Shown in pieces: positions 2,677-10,425 of a DNA stretch of 64,000 nucleotides. Position numbers and translations under genes: made by a program. The stretch covers positions 62,001-126,000 of the forward strand of contig BJHS01000006.1 of NCBI GenBank assembly GCA_014193315.1, read 5' to 3'. The notes beneath the pieces are model-generated. The model was given only the letters and a program-made list of their open reading frames with translations. It was not told the DNA's origin and searched no databases. This DNA is from Verrucomicrobiota bacterium (lineage in GTDB: Bacteria > Verrucomicrobiota > Verrucomicrobiia > Opitutales > UBA953). Each line of letters opens with the position of its first letter. The first letter of the stretch is position 1.

Positions 2677-5397
2677 TTAGGCGTTCTTGTCGGAGCCGGC
2701 CTCCCAGGAGTAGGTGCGCGGGAGTTCCGCGGCATCCACACCCTTACGATTGCCCTTGTGCCACCAGTAGAAAACGGGGCTGGCGATGAAGATGGAGGAG
2801 AAGGTACCGGTGAGCACGCCGTAGATGAAGACCTCGCCGTAGAGGCGGACGTCGCCGGCGCCGAAAGCCCAGAGGGCGACGGCGCACAGGAAAACGGTCG
2901 TGGAGGTCAGCACCGTGCGGGACAGCGTGCGGTTGATGGCGAAGTGGATGACGTCGGCCAGGGAGCGCGACGGGTTGGTCTCGAGCTCCTCCCGGATACG
3001 GTCGAAGACGACGATGGTGTCGTTCACCGAGTAGCCGATGATGAGCAGGATGGCCGCGATCAACGCCGCGTTGAACTGACCGCCGAAGAAAACGAACAGC
3101 GCGACGGTCATGAGCACGTCGTGCAAGGTCGCCACCATGGCCGCGACGCCAAAACCCGTCTCGAAGCGCAGTGACACGTAGATGCCGATGCCAAGGAGGG
3201 CGAGCACGACGGACCAGATGGCGTTGGTGCGCAAGTCGCCGCTCACCGACCCGCCGATGGCTTCACGGGAAAGCATGATTTTCTCGACGGGCTGGGCCGC
3301 GTCCTTGAGGTACTCAGGATGCTGGGCCTTAATCCCGGCGACGATCTTGGAGAGATTCGCAAAGTCGCCCTTGGACTTATCCTTCGTCAACTCGGTCTCG
3401 ATACGAAGGGTCGGCTCGCCACCCCCCACCGGCTGCTGGATTATCGCGGTGGTGTCGGGGAGCCCCAGACCTTCGGCGATTTTCAGCACCTGGCCGACAT
3501 CGACCTTGGCGCCGGGCGCGATGTGCACGACGGTGGATTCGCCGCCGCGGAAGTCCTTGCCAAAAGCGTCCTTCCCTTTGACGGCGAGCTCGCAGATGCC
3601 GATGCCGACGATCACCCAGGAGACGATGAAGGCCCAGCGGGCGTACTTGAGGAACGGAATCGCCAAGGTCGAACGGAAGACCGGGAAACCGAAAATCCGG
3701 TTCATGATGCCGGCGGACTGGGTCAGTTCCTGCAGACCGCGGCAAGTCACTAAGGTACTGAACAACGTGGTGAAGATACCGATGATGAGCGTGATCCCGA
3801 AGCCGCGGATCGGCCCAGTGCCCATGAAGACGAGGATCGTCGCCACGATCAAGTGGGTCAGGTTGGCGTCCACGATCGTCCACGTGGCACGGTTATATCC
3901 TTCGCGGAAGGAGACCGTGCGATCCTTGCCCAAGGCAGCCTCTTCGCGCACGCGCTCGAAGATAAGGATGTTGGCGTCGACCGCCATCCCGAGGGTCAAC
4001 ACCAAGGCGGCGACACCCGGCAACGTGATGGTCGCCCCGAAGTAGGCCATGGCGCCGAGCATGAGGAGCAAATTGACCACCATGCCGAAGACCGCGATGA
4101 AGCCGCCCCAGACGTAGAAGCCGACCATGAAGAAGATGACGAGGCCGACGGCGACGGCGGAGGCCACGACCGACTTGGCCTGGGCGTCCTTGGCGAGACT
4201 TGGGCCGACGGAGGTGACGTCCTGGGTGAGGAGCGGGAACTCCAGCGGGTTATTCAGCACATTGGCGAGCCCCTTGGCTTCTTCCCGGCTAAAGTTACCG
4301 GTGATCTGGGCATTTCCCCCGTAGATTGGCTTTTGCACCGTCGGGGCAGACTGGAGGACGCCGTCGAGCACGATGGCCAACTGGCCGAGGCTACCCTGCG
4401 TGTTACCTTCGGAAATCTTCTTGGTAAGGTCCCCGAACCTCGTGCCGCCCTCTTCCGTGAAGGTCATGTCCACCATATAGGTGAGACCATCCTGGGAATT
4501 GTCGCGGGAGCGGCGGATGATGCTACCGCCGGCGTCGGCGCGCTTCTTGACGAAATAACGCTGCAGCTTCACTTCACCGGTGCGGCTGTCGACGTTGCGC
4601 TGGGTCAGGACCTCGTAGGTCGAGATCGCGGAGTTGTTGCCGGCCATCTCGTCGTCCGGGAGGGCCTTGAGCAGGTGCTCGCGGTCGGTCGGCTCGGGGC
4701 GGCGGGTACGATGCACCTGGCGGAACTCAAGCTTCGCCGGCTTCTTCAGCGCATCGATGATATCCGGATTGTTGGCGGCGTCCTCGCCCGGAAGCTGGAT
4801 TTCGAGCGAGAGATCGCCGACCGGACGCAACACGGGCTCGGCGACACCGAACTCGTTGACGCGCTTATCCATCACCACCAAGGCTTGATTGACCATGTCG
4901 GCATGGGAAACCGACCCCTTCTCGACGGCCGCCTTGACCCCGCCCTCCGCGCCGGTCGGGTCGACCTTCAGCGTGAAGGAAACCCCACCCTGCAGGTCAA
5001 GGCCGAGCTTCATCTTGCCCTGGCAGGACTTGAGCAGTTCCTTGAGGACGATGACGTTGCGTTTATTCTGGTCGGGCTCGCGGACGAAGTCGGCCTCCTT
5101 GTAGAAGAACGGACGGAGGTCGACGGGACCAGCGCGACCGCGGCCTTCACCGATGTCACGCAGGGCTTGGAAGTAGGAGATCGACTTCTTGTCCGCGGGC
5201 ACAGTCGCGTCGGCGTTGAGTCGCACCCGCTCCAACGCCTCGGTGTGCAGTTTGGCGAAGTCCTCTGGCTTCTCGATGACGTGCTTGGGCGCGTAGCGCT
5301 CCAACGGAATCGGGGAAAGCGGCCAGAACTCGTAAAACGCGACTGCGAGGGCGAGAAGGGAGACGGCAACCTTCCAGAACCATGTCCTGGATGTCAT
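2677..5397 (-). CDS. secDF: Fused protein translocase subunit SecDF
   Basis: SecDF uses the proton gradient to help pull exported proteins through SecYEG. The 906-residue protein is SecD joined to SecF. It has one N-terminal membrane helix (about 9-26), the motif GLDLQGGVSFTL near 135, a large periplasmic P1 domain, a SecD membrane bundle around residues 410-570 with the motif AVDANILIFER, then the SecF half with its own periplasmic segment and helices including the motif SVNDTIVVFDR. Fused SecDF is known in several phyla, including Bacteroidota and PVC bacteria. It lies 24 bases after yajC in the same direction, the standard yajC-secD-secF order. Confidence 0.96.
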   Translation of the reverse strand: MTSRTWFWKVAVSLLALAVAFYEFWPLSPIPLERYAPKHVIEKPEDFAKLHTEALERVRLNADATVPADKKSISYFQALRDIGEGRGRAGPVDLRPFFYKEADFVREPDQNKRNVIVLKELLKSCQGKMKLGLDLQGGVSFTLKVDPTGAEGGVKAAVEKGSVSHADMVNQALVVMDKRVNEFGVAEPVLRPVGDLSLEIQLPGEDAANNPDIIDALKKPAKLEFRQVHRTRRPEPTDREHLLKALPDDEMAGNNSAISTYEVLTQRNVDSRTGEVKLQRYFVKKRADAGGSIIRRSRDNSQDGLTYMVDMTFTEEGGTRFGDLTKKISEGNTQGSLGQLAIVLDGVLQSAPTVQKPIYGGNAQITGNFSREEAKGLANVLNNPLEFPLLTQDVTSVGPSLAKDAQAKSVVASAVAVGLVIFFMVGFYVWGGFIAVFGMVVNLLLMLGAMAYFGATITLPGVAALVLTLGMAVDANILIFERVREEAALGKDRTVSFREGYNRATWTIVDANLTHLIVATILVFMGTGPIRGFGITLIIGIFTTLFSTLVTCRGLQELTQSAGIMNRIFGFPVFRSTLAIPFLKYARWAFIVSWVIVGIGICELAVKGKDAFGKDFRGGESTVVHIAPGAKVDVGQVLKIAEGLGLPDTTAIIQQPVGGGEPTLRIETELTKDKSKGDFANLSKIVAGIKAQHPEYLKDAAQPVEKIMLSREAIGGSVSGDLRTNAIWSVVLALLGIGIYVSLRFETGFGVAAMVATLHDVLMTVALFVFFGGQFNAALIAAILLIIGYSVNDTIVVFDRIREELETNPSRSLADVIHFAINRTLSRTVLTSTTVFLCAVALWAFGAGDVRLYGEVFIYGVLTGTFSSIFIASPVFYWWHKGNRKGVDAAELPRTYSWEAGSDKNA

Positions 5398-5894: not shown

Positions 5895-7943
5895 ATGAGC
5901 AAAGCCACCAAGGAGGTGCCCGCCAAGGCGGACGACGCCCCCCCCTCCCCCCTTCGTAAACCGCTGACCGCCGCCGCCGTGATCGCCGCGCTCGGCGTGG
6001 TCTTCGGGGATATCGGCACCAGCCCCCTGTACGCCTTCCGGGAATGCCTCAAAACCAGCGTAACCCATGGGGCGGATATCCCGTCCAGCATCGTCGCCGC
6101 GGTTTCGATGATCATCTGGTCCCTCATCTGCGTCGTGACGATTAAATACGTCATGTTCATCATGGAGGCCAACGACTACGGCGAGGGGGGGATCATGACC
6201 CTGGTCTCGCTCGCCTCCCCGCAGAACCAAGAAGACCGCAAGCGCAAGCACCGCAGCGTGCTGGTCCTGCTCGGGGTCTTCGGAACCGCCCTGCTCTTCG
6301 GCGACGGGGTCATCACCCCCGCCATCTCCGTGCTCTCCGCCTTGGAAGGCATCAAGGAGGCCAATGAAAGCCTCCAGGGGCCGCTGACGCCCAGTTTCCT
6401 CGCCTTCTTCATCCCGGCGGCGGCGGTCGCCATCCTGATCGGTATCTTCACCTTACAGAAGCGGGGCTCGGGCCGGGTCGGCATGTATTTCGGACCGGTG
6501 ACCCTGATCTGGTTCATCTGCATCGCCATCTCCGGCGTGGGTTCGCTGATCGCCCATGCACCGCAAACCCCGATGATTCTGCACGCCTTCAACCCTTTCG
6601 AGGCTATCGGTTTCTTCTACACCCAACCTCGCCTTGGCATGCTCATCCTCAGCGCCGTCTTCCTCGCGGTGACCGGTGCCGAAGCCCTCTACGCCGACAT
6701 GGGACACTTCGGCCAAAAGCCGATTCGCGCCGGCTGGCACTTCATCGTCTTCCCCGCCCTCATCCTGAACTACCTTGGTCAGGGTGCCTGGGCGCTAGCC
6801 CAGCCGGTCGCGGACATCGCCAAGGACCCCAGCCCCTTCTTCAACATGGCGCCAGCCTGGGCCCAGATCCCGCTGGTCGTGATCGCCACCCTCGCCGCCA
6901 TCATCGCCTCGCAGGCCCTGATCTCGGGCGCTTTCTCCACCACGATGCAGGCGATTCAACTGAACTACCTGCCGCGGATGCGCATCGAACGCACTTCCGA
7001 CGAGGAGTCCGGCCAGATCTACATTCCGATCATCAACTGGATGCTGATGCTCGGCTCTATCTGCTTGGTCTTGCAATACAAGGCGTCGACGCACCTCGCC
7101 TCCGCCTACGGCATCGCCGTCAGCCTGACGATGCTGGTCACGACCATCCTCTTCGGCCAATACATGAGCCGACACTTCAAGCTCCCCATCGCGACCGCGT
7201 ACGTCTTCGTCGCCCCGGTCATCGCCTTGGAGCTGGTCTTCGTCTCCTCCAATTTTCACAAGATTTTCGACAGCGGCTGGCTACCCCTCGCCGCCGGCTT
7301 CTTCGTCTACTACCTGATGTCGACCTGGAACAAGGGTCGCATCGAGATGAAACGGAAACTCGCGCAGGACGCCACCGCCGAGGAATTCAACCCCTTCATC
7401 GACAGCGTCGAGGACAGTTTCCTCAACGGCAGGCTTAGCCGGGTCAAGGGCACCGCCATCTACCTCGCCGGGAATACCCGCTCCGTGCCAATGGCGCTCG
7501 CGCACAACCTCAAACACAACAAGGCGCTCCACGACCTCATCATCGTGCTGACCCTGCAGGTCGACGAGGACCGCGCAATTGTCCCGTCGAAGGACCGGGT
7601 GCAGTTCGACTCGCGCCCGCCCAAGTTCTGCAAGGTCGAGGGCAAGCAGGAGTTCCCCCTCGTGCTCCGCGTGACGGGGCATTGCGGCTTCCGTGAACAG
7701 CAGACCATCCTGCCGGTGCTCAAGGCCGCCTACGACCAACTGGGCATCAACCCCAAGGAACTGGAGACGACCTACTTCCTCAGCCGCGAGACCATCGTCC
7801 GCGACACTTCCAAGAATTTTTCGCTCAACGCCGTGCAGGAGAAGGTCTTCGAAGTCCTGAACCGCAACTCCCTCTCCGCCACCGCCTACTTCAACTTGCC
7901 GCCCGGCCGCGTCGTCGAGCTCGGCATGCAGGTCGAGCTCTGA
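5895..7943 (+). CDS. kup: Low-affinity potassium transport protein Kup
   Basis: Kup is a proton-coupled potassium importer of the inner membrane. The 682-residue length is slightly above the usual 620-630. The N-terminal signature GDIGTSPLYAF lies near residue 36, followed by about twelve hydrophobic helices and a soluble C-terminal domain of about 200 residues. Typical Kup motifs are visible, such as EALYADMGHFG and QALISGAFS. The N-terminal 20 residues are Lys/Ala/Pro-rich and extra to the family core. The start is the ATG directly after the TGTGAATAA box, and no strong Shine-Dalgarno sequence is visible. Its 3' end converges on a lipoprotein gene. Confidence 0.94.
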   Translation: MSKATKEVPAKADDAPPSPLRKPLTAAAVIAALGVVFGDIGTSPLYAFRECLKTSVTHGADIPSSIVAAVSMIIWSLICVVTIKYVMFIMEANDYGEGGIMTLVSLASPQNQEDRKRKHRSVLVLLGVFGTALLFGDGVITPAISVLSALEGIKEANESLQGPLTPSFLAFFIPAAAVAILIGIFTLQKRGSGRVGMYFGPVTLIWFICIAISGVGSLIAHAPQTPMILHAFNPFEAIGFFYTQPRLGMLILSAVFLAVTGAEALYADMGHFGQKPIRAGWHFIVFPALILNYLGQGAWALAQPVADIAKDPSPFFNMAPAWAQIPLVVIATLAAIIASQALISGAFSTTMQAIQLNYLPRMRIERTSDEESGQIYIPIINWMLMLGSICLVLQYKASTHLASAYGIAVSLTMLVTTILFGQYMSRHFKLPIATAYVFVAPVIALELVFVSSNFHKIFDSGWLPLAAGFFVYYLMSTWNKGRIEMKRKLAQDATAEEFNPFIDSVEDSFLNGRLSRVKGTAIYLAGNTRSVPMALAHNLKHNKALHDLIIVLTLQVDEDRAIVPSKDRVQFDSRPPKFCKVEGKQEFPLVLRVTGHCGFREQQTILPVLKAAYDQLGINPKELETTYFLSRETIVRDTSKNFSLNAVQEKVFEVLNRNSLSATAYFNLPPGRVVELGMQVEL

Positions 7944-7948
7944 GTCGC

Positions 7949-8461
7949 TCAGCGCGCCGCCTCAAAGCGGAAGACAAAGGCCTGCTCGCAGGGGTGGTTG
8001 GCGTCGTCGGCAAGTTCCCGCGGCGTCTCGACCACGCAGACGGCGCCGACCTGCTCCCAGCGGAGCGCGTCGGGCCAACCCAAGATTGTGACCCGGGTAC
8101 CTGCGGCGGGCTGAAGGGACTTGGTGCGCATCTCCTTACCGGGCCAGCCCAGGACAATCACGTAGGTGACGCGACCATCCGTCGTGAGGGTGAAATGATG
8201 CCCGGCTTCCGTCGGCAATTCCGCGGCACGCACGGCAGTGACCGCTTCGGCATTCACGTTGACCCACTTCTCGACATGCAAGAAAGCGGCGGTGCGGGCG
8301 GGGTCGGCCGGGTCGACCCACCCGTGGGGATCCGGATGCTCACCCGCGGCGGCGGCCTCGATGAGCGCGACCAAGGCATCGGCCGGATCGGTCGGCACGT
8401 GCCGACAACCCACGAGCGTGGCAAGCAACCCGACGAGCCCGACGGCGAGGTGTCGCATCAT
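7949..8461 (-). CDS. Lipoprotein with a stand-alone alpha-L-fucosidase C-terminal-like domain
   Basis: Two adjacent ATGs (8461 and 8458) open a protein of about 170 residues with a lipoprotein signal peptide (LVGLLATLVGC), so Cys at about position 18-19 should be lipidated. After a short Ala/Asp/Pro-rich segment, the last 110 residues read like the C-terminal beta-sandwich domain of GH29 alpha-L-fucosidases: EKWVNVNAEAV, then YVIVLGWPGKE, TKSL, VTILG, LRWEQ and a final EQAFVFRF. In GH29 enzymes this domain follows the catalytic barrel; no barrel is present here. The gene lies 10 bases after carA on the same strand and may be co-transcribed. The function is unknown; a surface carbohydrate- or protein-binding role is a guess. 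Confidence 0.7.
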   Translation of the reverse strand: MMRHLAVGLVGLLATLVGCRHVPTDPADALVALIEAAAAGEHPDPHGWVDPADPARTAAFLHVEKWVNVNAEAVTAVRAAELPTEAGHHFTLTTDGRVTYVIVLGWPGKEMRTKSLQPAAGTRVTILGWPDALRWEQVGAVCVVETPRELADDANHPCEQAFVFRFEAAR

Positions 8462-8471
8462 TCCGCGACCG

Positions 8472-9629
8472 TTACCGGGCGCCCTTATCCTTGGCGACCA
8501 GGTCGTAGAAACGGTCGAAGAGCACGTCGGCATCGTTCGGGCCGGGACCGGCCTCGGGGTGATACTGGACGGAGAAGACGGGCTTATCCTTGAGACGCAG
8601 GCCGGAGACCGTGCCGTCGTTCATGTTGACCTCGGTGACGATCGCCCCGCAACGGGCAAGTTCATCGGGCTTGGAAGCGAAGCCGTGGTTCTGGGCGGTG
8701 ATGGAAACTCGGTTGACCTCGCTGTTCTTGACCGGCTGGTTGCCCCCGCGGTGACCGAACTTCAGTTTGTAGGTCGAAGCCCCGATGGCGTGGGTGATGA
8801 TCTGATGCCCGAGGCAGATGCCGAACACCGGGAAGGACTTGATCAAGTCGGCCACCGTTTCGTGGGCGTACTTAAGGGCGGCAGGGTCGCCCGGGCCATT
8901 GGACAGGAAGACGGCGTCAGGCTGGAAGGCCCGGATCTCGGCGGCGGTCGTGCGGGCGGGGAAGACGTGCACGTCAAAACCGGAAGCGACCAGACGACGG
9001 AAGATGGAGGACTTGGCGCCGAAGTCGAAAGCGGCGAGTTTGAAGCGCACCGGACGGACCTTCGGCTTGTTCAGGTTGGTACCCGTGACGGTGAAAGCCT
9101 GGCAGTCGACCGGCTTGGGATTGTAATGGTAAGGGGCCTTGCACGTGACTTCCTTGACGAAGTCGGCACCGACGGTGCCGGTCCAAGCGCGGGCACGCTT
9201 CAAGGCTTCCTCATCGCTCAGGCCTTCGGTCGAGAGGCAGGCCTTCATGACGCCGGCGACGCGAAGCTTCTTCGTCAGGAAACGAGTGTCGACGCCTTCG
9301 ATGCCCGGGATGCCGTACTTCTGCAGCCACGAACCGAGGTCGGTCGTCGCGCGCCAGTTGGAGACGATGGGCGAAAGGTCGCGCACCACGAAACCAGCGA
9401 CGTGCGGACGGGCGGATTCGAGATCCTCCTCGTTCACGCCGTAGTTGCCGATCTGTGGCGCGGTCATGGTCACGATCTGACCGAAGTAGGAAGGGTCCGT
9501 CAGGATTTCCTGATATCCGGTCATGCTGGTATTGAAGACCGCTTCGCCGCAGAGGGTCGCGGTGGCGCCAAATGCCTTTCCTCGAAGAATCGTTCCGTCT
9601 TCCAGGGCGAGCACAGCGTGGCGGGTCAT
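8472..9629 (-). CDS. carA: Carbamoyl-phosphate synthase small (glutaminase) chain
   Basis: CarA hydrolyses glutamine and passes ammonia to CarB for carbamoyl phosphate, feeding pyrimidines and arginine. I start at the ATG at 9629 ([12 protein letters not shown], 385 residues); longer in-frame starts add non-homologous sequence. The N-terminal CPSase domain ([11 protein letters not shown]) is followed by a class-I glutamine amidotransferase domain with the nucleophile Cys in FGICLGHQ and the His/Glu of the motif [12 protein letters not shown]. carB is not adjacent in this window. The 112-base leader up to queE has no clear attenuator that I could identify. Confidence 0.96.
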
Positions 9630-9741
9630 GAGTCCGTTTTGAATGACGGTTCGCCCTCGGTGTGAAGCAAAAAAGCGAAGGAATGAAAGATAGTCTCGGC
9701 CGAGGTCGCCACCCCGGTGCCACCCCCTCCCCTTCAAGGAC

Positions 9742-10425
9742 TCAGAAACCCTTGCTGAGATCGCCACCCAGGGGGGCCGGCGGACGGGCCCGGAGGTCCA
9801 AACTGTCCGCCGCGTAGGGCTTGTGAACCTGCCAGCCGGCCCGGAAAGGCGCCCCCACGGACTTCACGTGGTCGGTGATAGCCCGTAGCACCTCCGGCTG
9901 GGCGCGCTGGGACCATTCGGGATGGAGCCAGACGTGCCGAGCGGACCATTGCCCCCCCACCGCCTCGGTCCAACGGGCGATGCTTTCGCGGCTTTCCACA
10001 ATGATCTTCACCTCATCAGCCCTCACCAGTGATGCCGGGAGAGGAGGCTTGGCCCATTTGGGGCTCAAAGTGACCCAAGCCAAGCCCGGGGCGATGGGGT
10101 ATGCCCCGCAGGTCTCCAGGTGGGCGGGTAGCCCGACCGACCGCAGAGCCTCAACCAAGGGGGCGAGGTCATGGATGCAGGGCTCGCCCCCGGTCAAGAC
10201 CACGAACTCGGGACGGGCGGCGGCAGCCTCGGCGGCCAGATCGGCGGCGCTCGCCCGCCGGAGGTCCTTCGGGACGAACTGGGGGTGCCAGGTAGAAGCC
10301 GAGTCACACCAGGCACACTTCACGGGGCAACCCTGCAGCCGGATGAAGAAGGCCTTACGACCCAGATGCACCCCTTCCCCCTGCCAACTGAGGAACGTCT
10401 CATTGACGGGGTAGAACTCAGCCAT
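9742..10425 (-). CDS. queE: 7-carboxy-7-deazaguanine synthase QueE (radical SAM)
   Basis: QueE converts 6-carboxytetrahydropterin into 7-carboxy-7-deazaguanine, the second dedicated step to preQ0 and queuosine. The 227-residue product has the family opening [20 protein letters not shown]. The cluster-binding cysteines follow as C33-x3-C37-x2-C40 (CPVKCAWC), the spacing of canonical radical SAM proteins, then the SAM-binding LTGGEP. It starts two bases after the queD stop, so the two are surely co-transcribed. queC lies about 0.9 kb upstream on the same strand. Confidence 0.95.

Follow-up and report, generated by a model that had tools for sequence, protein, structure and literature searches.

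A predicted lipoprotein of 170 residues, encoded between carA and a potassium transporter gene in one genus of Verrucomicrobiota, very probably has the fold and the ancestry of the tail of a GH29 glycosidase. The full explanation that we propose, in which the enzyme lost most of its catalytic barrel and the remainder was kept as a binding module, has in our judgment an even chance of being correct, and the binding of glycans by this module falls slightly short of that. The gene lies in the window, i.e. the whole stretch of 64,000 nucleotides that was analysed, with the following features and neighbours.

7949..8461, minus strand: gene for the probable barrel-less GH29 remnant lipoprotein (170 aa; ORF, family and structure searches)
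8405..8461, minus strand: predicted signal peptide with lipobox LVGC (residues 1-19, Cys19 lipidated by prediction; Cys conservation)
8243..8392, minus strand: residues 24-73 (about), candidate GH29 barrel-end remnant (model, structural and joint alignments)
7961..8233, minus strand: residues 77-167, GH29 C-terminal beta-sandwich PF16757 (Pfam, phmmer, hhalign, structure)
8472..9629, minus strand: presumed carA (carbamoyl-phosphate synthase small subunit), upstream neighbour
5895..7943, plus strand: presumed kup-like potassium transporter gene, convergent to the lipoprotein gene

The gene and its GH29-like tail

As the preliminary description had reported, the frame at 7949-8461 carries a lipobox; it starts with an ATG at 8461, ends with the stop codon at 7949-7951, and places the lipobox cysteine at residue 19. 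Both features that mark bacterial lipoproteins, an N-terminal signal and a lipobox Cys, are present. Cys19 is kept in all 40 rows of the orthologue alignment, within an LxxC lipobox in 39 rows and CVAC in one. The next residue is R, A, S, V, T, G or E, and Asp in none of the 40 rows. The sorting rule that reads this residue as Asp or not is that of E. coli; since Asp never occurs here, the protein, which is predicted to be lipidated, would be sorted to the outer membrane.

The upstream gene was named carA after the preliminary description and from family features, and its stop codon is separated from the lipoprotein ATG by a gap of 10 bases; 5 bases lie between the lipoprotein and kup stop codons. 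A scan of 7700-9900 detected no terminator-like site, which is compatible with a single carA-lipoprotein transcript without proving it, and no sigma-70-like promoter. This arrangement makes co-transcription with carA plausible, which would say little on function. No sugar-utilisation genes adjoin the lipoprotein gene, and carA and kup flank the gene at every locus checked, with no polysaccharide utilisation locus of the kind that encodes SusD/SGBP-type lipoproteins; the preliminary description had likewise placed the gene outside any sugar locus. Elsewhere in the window, presumed secD and secF are seemingly fused in a single 906-aa frame (2677-5397), beside a frame that we take to be yajC-like.

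The four motifs on which the preliminary description had based its comparison with the GH29 C-terminal beta-sandwich (EKWVNVNAEAV, YVIVLGWPGKE, LRWEQ and EQAFVFRF) were all found in the translation, and the match itself was borne out by profile and structure results, which rule out a chance match of motifs. The window protein scores 26.4 bits against PF16757 (Fucosidase_C) over residues 95-166 (E 1e-5), above the curated Pfam cut-off of 25.6 bits, a result that is marginal taken alone; among three distant orthologues, L086 lies above this cut-off (30.3) and L099 (21.4) and L104 (18.2) lie below it. Phmmer against PDB sequences returned four matches, headed by three GH29 chains, 7xsf, 7pls and 7xsg, of which 7xsf is the best (E 2.5e-8, residues 60-165), and hhalign of the 40-row orthologue profile against 26 GH29 enzymes gave a probability of 99.9 (E 1.8e-33). 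The NCBIfam search of the protein gave no match. Of the two parts that characterize a GH29 enzyme, the C-terminal beta-sandwich is therefore present, and of the (beta/alpha)8 barrel with its catalytic residues (PF01120), not reported in the protein by hmmscan, only the end aligns. The lack of a catalytic barrel noted earlier extends to the genome (2.36 Mb, 97% complete), in which no PF01120 match was found and this gene is the sole match to PF16757.

The AlphaFold model (mean pLDDT 86.4, pTM 0.80) contains helices at residues 26-38 and 54-73, followed by strands up to residue 167. By their titles, all 50 PDB rows listed by Foldseek belong to fucosidases or to other enzymes of GH29 (best E 9e-10). 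In the VIA structural alignment, rows 1-38 of the 50 listed are GH29 (Z 14.4-8.4), and the first non-GH29 row, row 39, is a GH140 (Z 7.5). Neither an unrelated beta-sandwich family among the best matches nor a lack of structural similarity to GH29, the two outcomes named in advance as speaking against the assignment, was observed, and the former is rejected, with non-GH29 rows starting only at Z 7.5.

Distribution, loss and selection

The lipoprotein gene was found in 32 of 37 same-genus genomes in the first set and in 40 of 53 in the order-level scan. The 41 relative loci are labelled Opitutae, Opitutales, Opitutia, Opitutus or Verrucomicrobia, some of them UBA953, UBA957 or UBA7397, and several bear lake names. 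One locus labelled Akkermansia muciniphila (L093) has the Opitutae carA-lipoprotein-kup arrangement and groups with L096, an Opitutae MAG; its label is probably wrong. PF01120 occurs in only two of the 37 genomes, G006, which is without the lipoprotein, and G009, with a partial match. The possibility that the lipoprotein helps a GH29 enzyme encoded elsewhere is thus rejected for its own genome and unlikely in the genus.

Both carA and kup flank the gene in 31 of 31 loci (30 genomes), and both are close by in all 37 automatically placed loci from the 41 named. Among the remaining four, L086, L093 and L096, with the Cys present, were added to the alignment by hand, and L105 is cut. No match to the gene was obtained in 13 of the 53 genomes. 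The carA locus was recovered in seven of these, and the other six, having no carA match, were left out of the loss assessment. In all seven loci the junction is empty, with carA and kup 2-13 bases apart, as it also is in the sister-genus locus L112. A genus tree based on secDF, carA, queE, queD and queC (43 tips, rooted on the sister genus) unites the seven gene-less loci in a single clade that lies within the carriers (support 1.0); its earliest branches, L099/L101 and then L086, all carry the gene. The gene was therefore present in the genus ancestor and then lost once among the genomes tested. This five-gene tree replaced an earlier one (carA and kup) that put L065 away from L066 and the window because kup recombines; by carA, L065 groups with both. 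L065 and L066 share 99.7% of CarA, 90.3% of the lipoprotein and 73.3% of Kup, the divergent tract running from ~200 bases inside the kup 3' end to ~2.5 kb from the lipoprotein start. A similar pattern was seen for L067 and L068.

Stand-alone copies were sought in overlapping sets of 372 (order), 387 (phylum) and 384 (class) genomes. Beyond the genus, matches fell in GH29-sized frames, save for short ones at contig ends (G274, 280 aa; G218, 145 aa), short ones with barrel pieces that are probably broken GH29 genes (G531, 268 aa; G832, 189 aa), and those in G711 (288 aa, including unknown residues), G933 (72 aa) and G616 (see below). A virus-borne gene was rejected, as none of 29 pattern matches in a scan of viral contigs encodes a relative. 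A literature search, with most subscription journals outside its coverage, found no description of a lipoprotein that is a free-standing GH29 C-terminal part.

Among orthologues, sequence identity to the window protein is 47-70%, compared with 82-91% for CarA. For the mature part, dN/dS has a median of 0.28 and a maximum of 0.69 (416 of 780 pairs, those with 0.05<dS<1.2), 36 columns of the 40-row alignment are invariant, and the frame is open in every complete locus read; the gene is under purifying selection. Several conserved residues set the lipoproteins apart from a comparison set of 39 GH29 tails (the five nearest and 34 others). E64 is invariant in the 40 lipoproteins, with G in 38 of the 39 enzyme tails; V77 is likewise invariant, with T in 36 and S in 3 of them, and the invariant W129 and H156 occur in none. 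T146, E149, N155 and R112 are uncommon, yet not absent, in GH29 tails. Together with W129 and H156, the residues E149, D152 and N155, which are invariant, and R148, which is nearly so, lie in loops around the last strands. The restriction of E64, V77, W129 and H156 to the lipoproteins argues for a new, non-catalytic role, of which these residues are signs.

Proposed binding module and alternative readings

According to the proposed scheme, a GH29 gene would have lost most of its catalytic barrel, leaving the last barrel helices and the C-terminal sandwich, and this tail, provided with a signal peptide of the lipoprotein type, would have come to lie between carA and kup ahead of the diversification of the genus. 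The lipidated protein would reach the outer membrane, where the anchored sandwich may serve as a non-catalytic binding module, its likeliest target being an envelope or an algal or plant polysaccharide. A putative binding site arisen after barrel loss would comprise W129, H156, E149, D152, N155 and R148. We place glycan binding first in view of the type of the parent enzyme, and the available text of PMC10154630 presents the terminal sandwiches of GH29 enzymes as possible carbohydrate binders. The same text gives carbohydrate binding by GH29 ancillary domains as still to be validated; for this reason, and in view of the subunit contacts formed by GH29 sandwiches, a protein partner comes close to a glycan in likelihood. 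No L-fucose isomerase (PF02952) was found in the genome, which makes fucose use through this enzyme unlikely and weighs against a simple fucose-feeding role.

A reading that we hold possible, at clearly less than even probability, retains the GH29 origin and dispenses with the sugar ligand: the protein would be a protein-protein adaptor or a structural envelope lipoprotein, and as an adaptor it would dock on another envelope protein by the face bared by the missing barrel or by the sandwich itself. FucA1 offers a precedent, as its protomers each touch two others via the catalytic and sandwich domains (available text of PMC9548408), and the absence of a sugar locus nearby and the G-to-E difference at position 64, in the helix ending the lost barrel, point the same way; however, no partner gene is fixed at the locus other than carA and kup. 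A more specific picture, to be taken as tentative, is that of a glycosidase that became a receptor or adaptor of the outer membrane with no catalytic function, in which W129, H156, R148/E149, D152 and N155 would form a new site on the tail, and E64 and V77 would resurface the old barrel interface.

Two origins had been offered in the preliminary description, loss of the barrel from a GH29 gene and recruitment of the domain. Under the latter, a lone beta-sandwich would have been taken up by a gene that never had a barrel, with the N-terminal helices as a new linker. Residues 20-63 alone indeed gave a non-significant hhalign probability of 0.2 against the GH29 profile, in line with the unreported PF01120, but the structural alignments run across both helices: residues 275-460 of human FUCA1 (7pls) superimpose on lipoprotein residues 18-169 at 2.4 A over 141 residues, and residues 302-448 of the T. 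maritima enzyme (1hl9) align with residues 24-168. Moreover, L33, G40 and P51 coincide with barrel-end positions conserved in 0.88, 0.96 and 0.96 of 26 GH29 enzymes, respectively, and the GH29 enzymes L159 and L160 match the lipoprotein profile from position 25-26 onward. With some reservation, residues about 24-73 are assigned from the alignment in context and the structure to the alpha7-beta8-alpha8 end of the GH29 barrel; D224 and E266, presumably the catalytic residues of the T. maritima enzyme, fall before the aligned range. The retained barrel end favours barrel loss, and recruitment of a lone domain appears improbable. A decaying pseudogene left from a GH29 gene, which the short length, the missing catalytic part, the loss in one clade and the faster evolution relative to CarA might suggest, is hardly credible and is refuted by the conservation of the gene, i.e. 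the open frames, the invariant columns, a dN/dS well below 1 and the universal lipobox Cys.

Possible parent enzyme and known systems

Freshwater Verrucomicrobia MAGs are GH29-rich according to the available text of PMC5615132, and parent enzymes were thus available. The preliminary description had proposed to look in relatives for the same gene beside carA and for a GH29 parent; the former was seen at all loci checked, but the latter was not pinned down by a tree of 40 lipoprotein and 39 GH29 tails, in which the lipoproteins stay together without placement (branch support 49.7/67, length 1.26). Full enzymes with the top profile scores are L159, L160 and L161 (117.8, 116.4 and 103.3 bits), and Q160 is common to L159-L163 and absent from the other 34 GH29 tails. 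Together, the scores and Q160 suggest, as a lead only, a parent near this Verrucomicrobiota GH29 group. L159-L161 differ from the lipoprotein in being 492-520 aa frames with a full PF01120 barrel, and the tail tree does not join L159-L163 to the lipoproteins. At the L160 locus (G881), frames of 508, 590 and 547 aa, all of GH29 type, follow one another, and one of the three belongs to the enzymes that score closest to the lipoprotein.

A frame in G616, from the same class (L141:1339-2211), encodes 291 aa, against 298 aa in the search for stand-alone copies; its N-terminus resembles a signal, and of PF01120 only the last 55 positions are matched (E 0.0043). In contrast to the lipoprotein, it is longer, has no PF16757 match and is adjoined by no known neighbour. 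It may represent another GH29 remnant, arisen independently and retaining hardly any barrel or none.

The C-terminal sandwich of GH29 enzymes has no agreed role, and here the domain is split from the enzyme and kept under selection genus-wide. If the proposed explanation is true, the family would be a naturally free-standing form of a domain with no established function within GH29 enzymes, small enough to suit direct binding tests, and in these freshwater Verrucomicrobiota an accessory part would have survived, as an envelope protein, the loss of the catalytic one.

Among known systems, the GH29 enzymes ClAgl29A/B (7xsf-7xsh), FUCA1 (7pls) and that of T. maritima (1hl9) share the same sandwich and last barrel helices (Z <=14.4), whereas the lipoprotein lacks the catalytic residues together with most of the barrel and has an N-terminal lipobox. 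Stand-alone carbohydrate-binding modules and surface glycan-binding lipoproteins are known kinds of non-catalytic binder. Unlike the surface glycan-binding lipoproteins, the protein described here belongs to no polysaccharide utilisation locus and its glycan binding is putative; like both kinds, it presents a non-catalytic beta-sandwich, in this case on a predicted lipid anchor.
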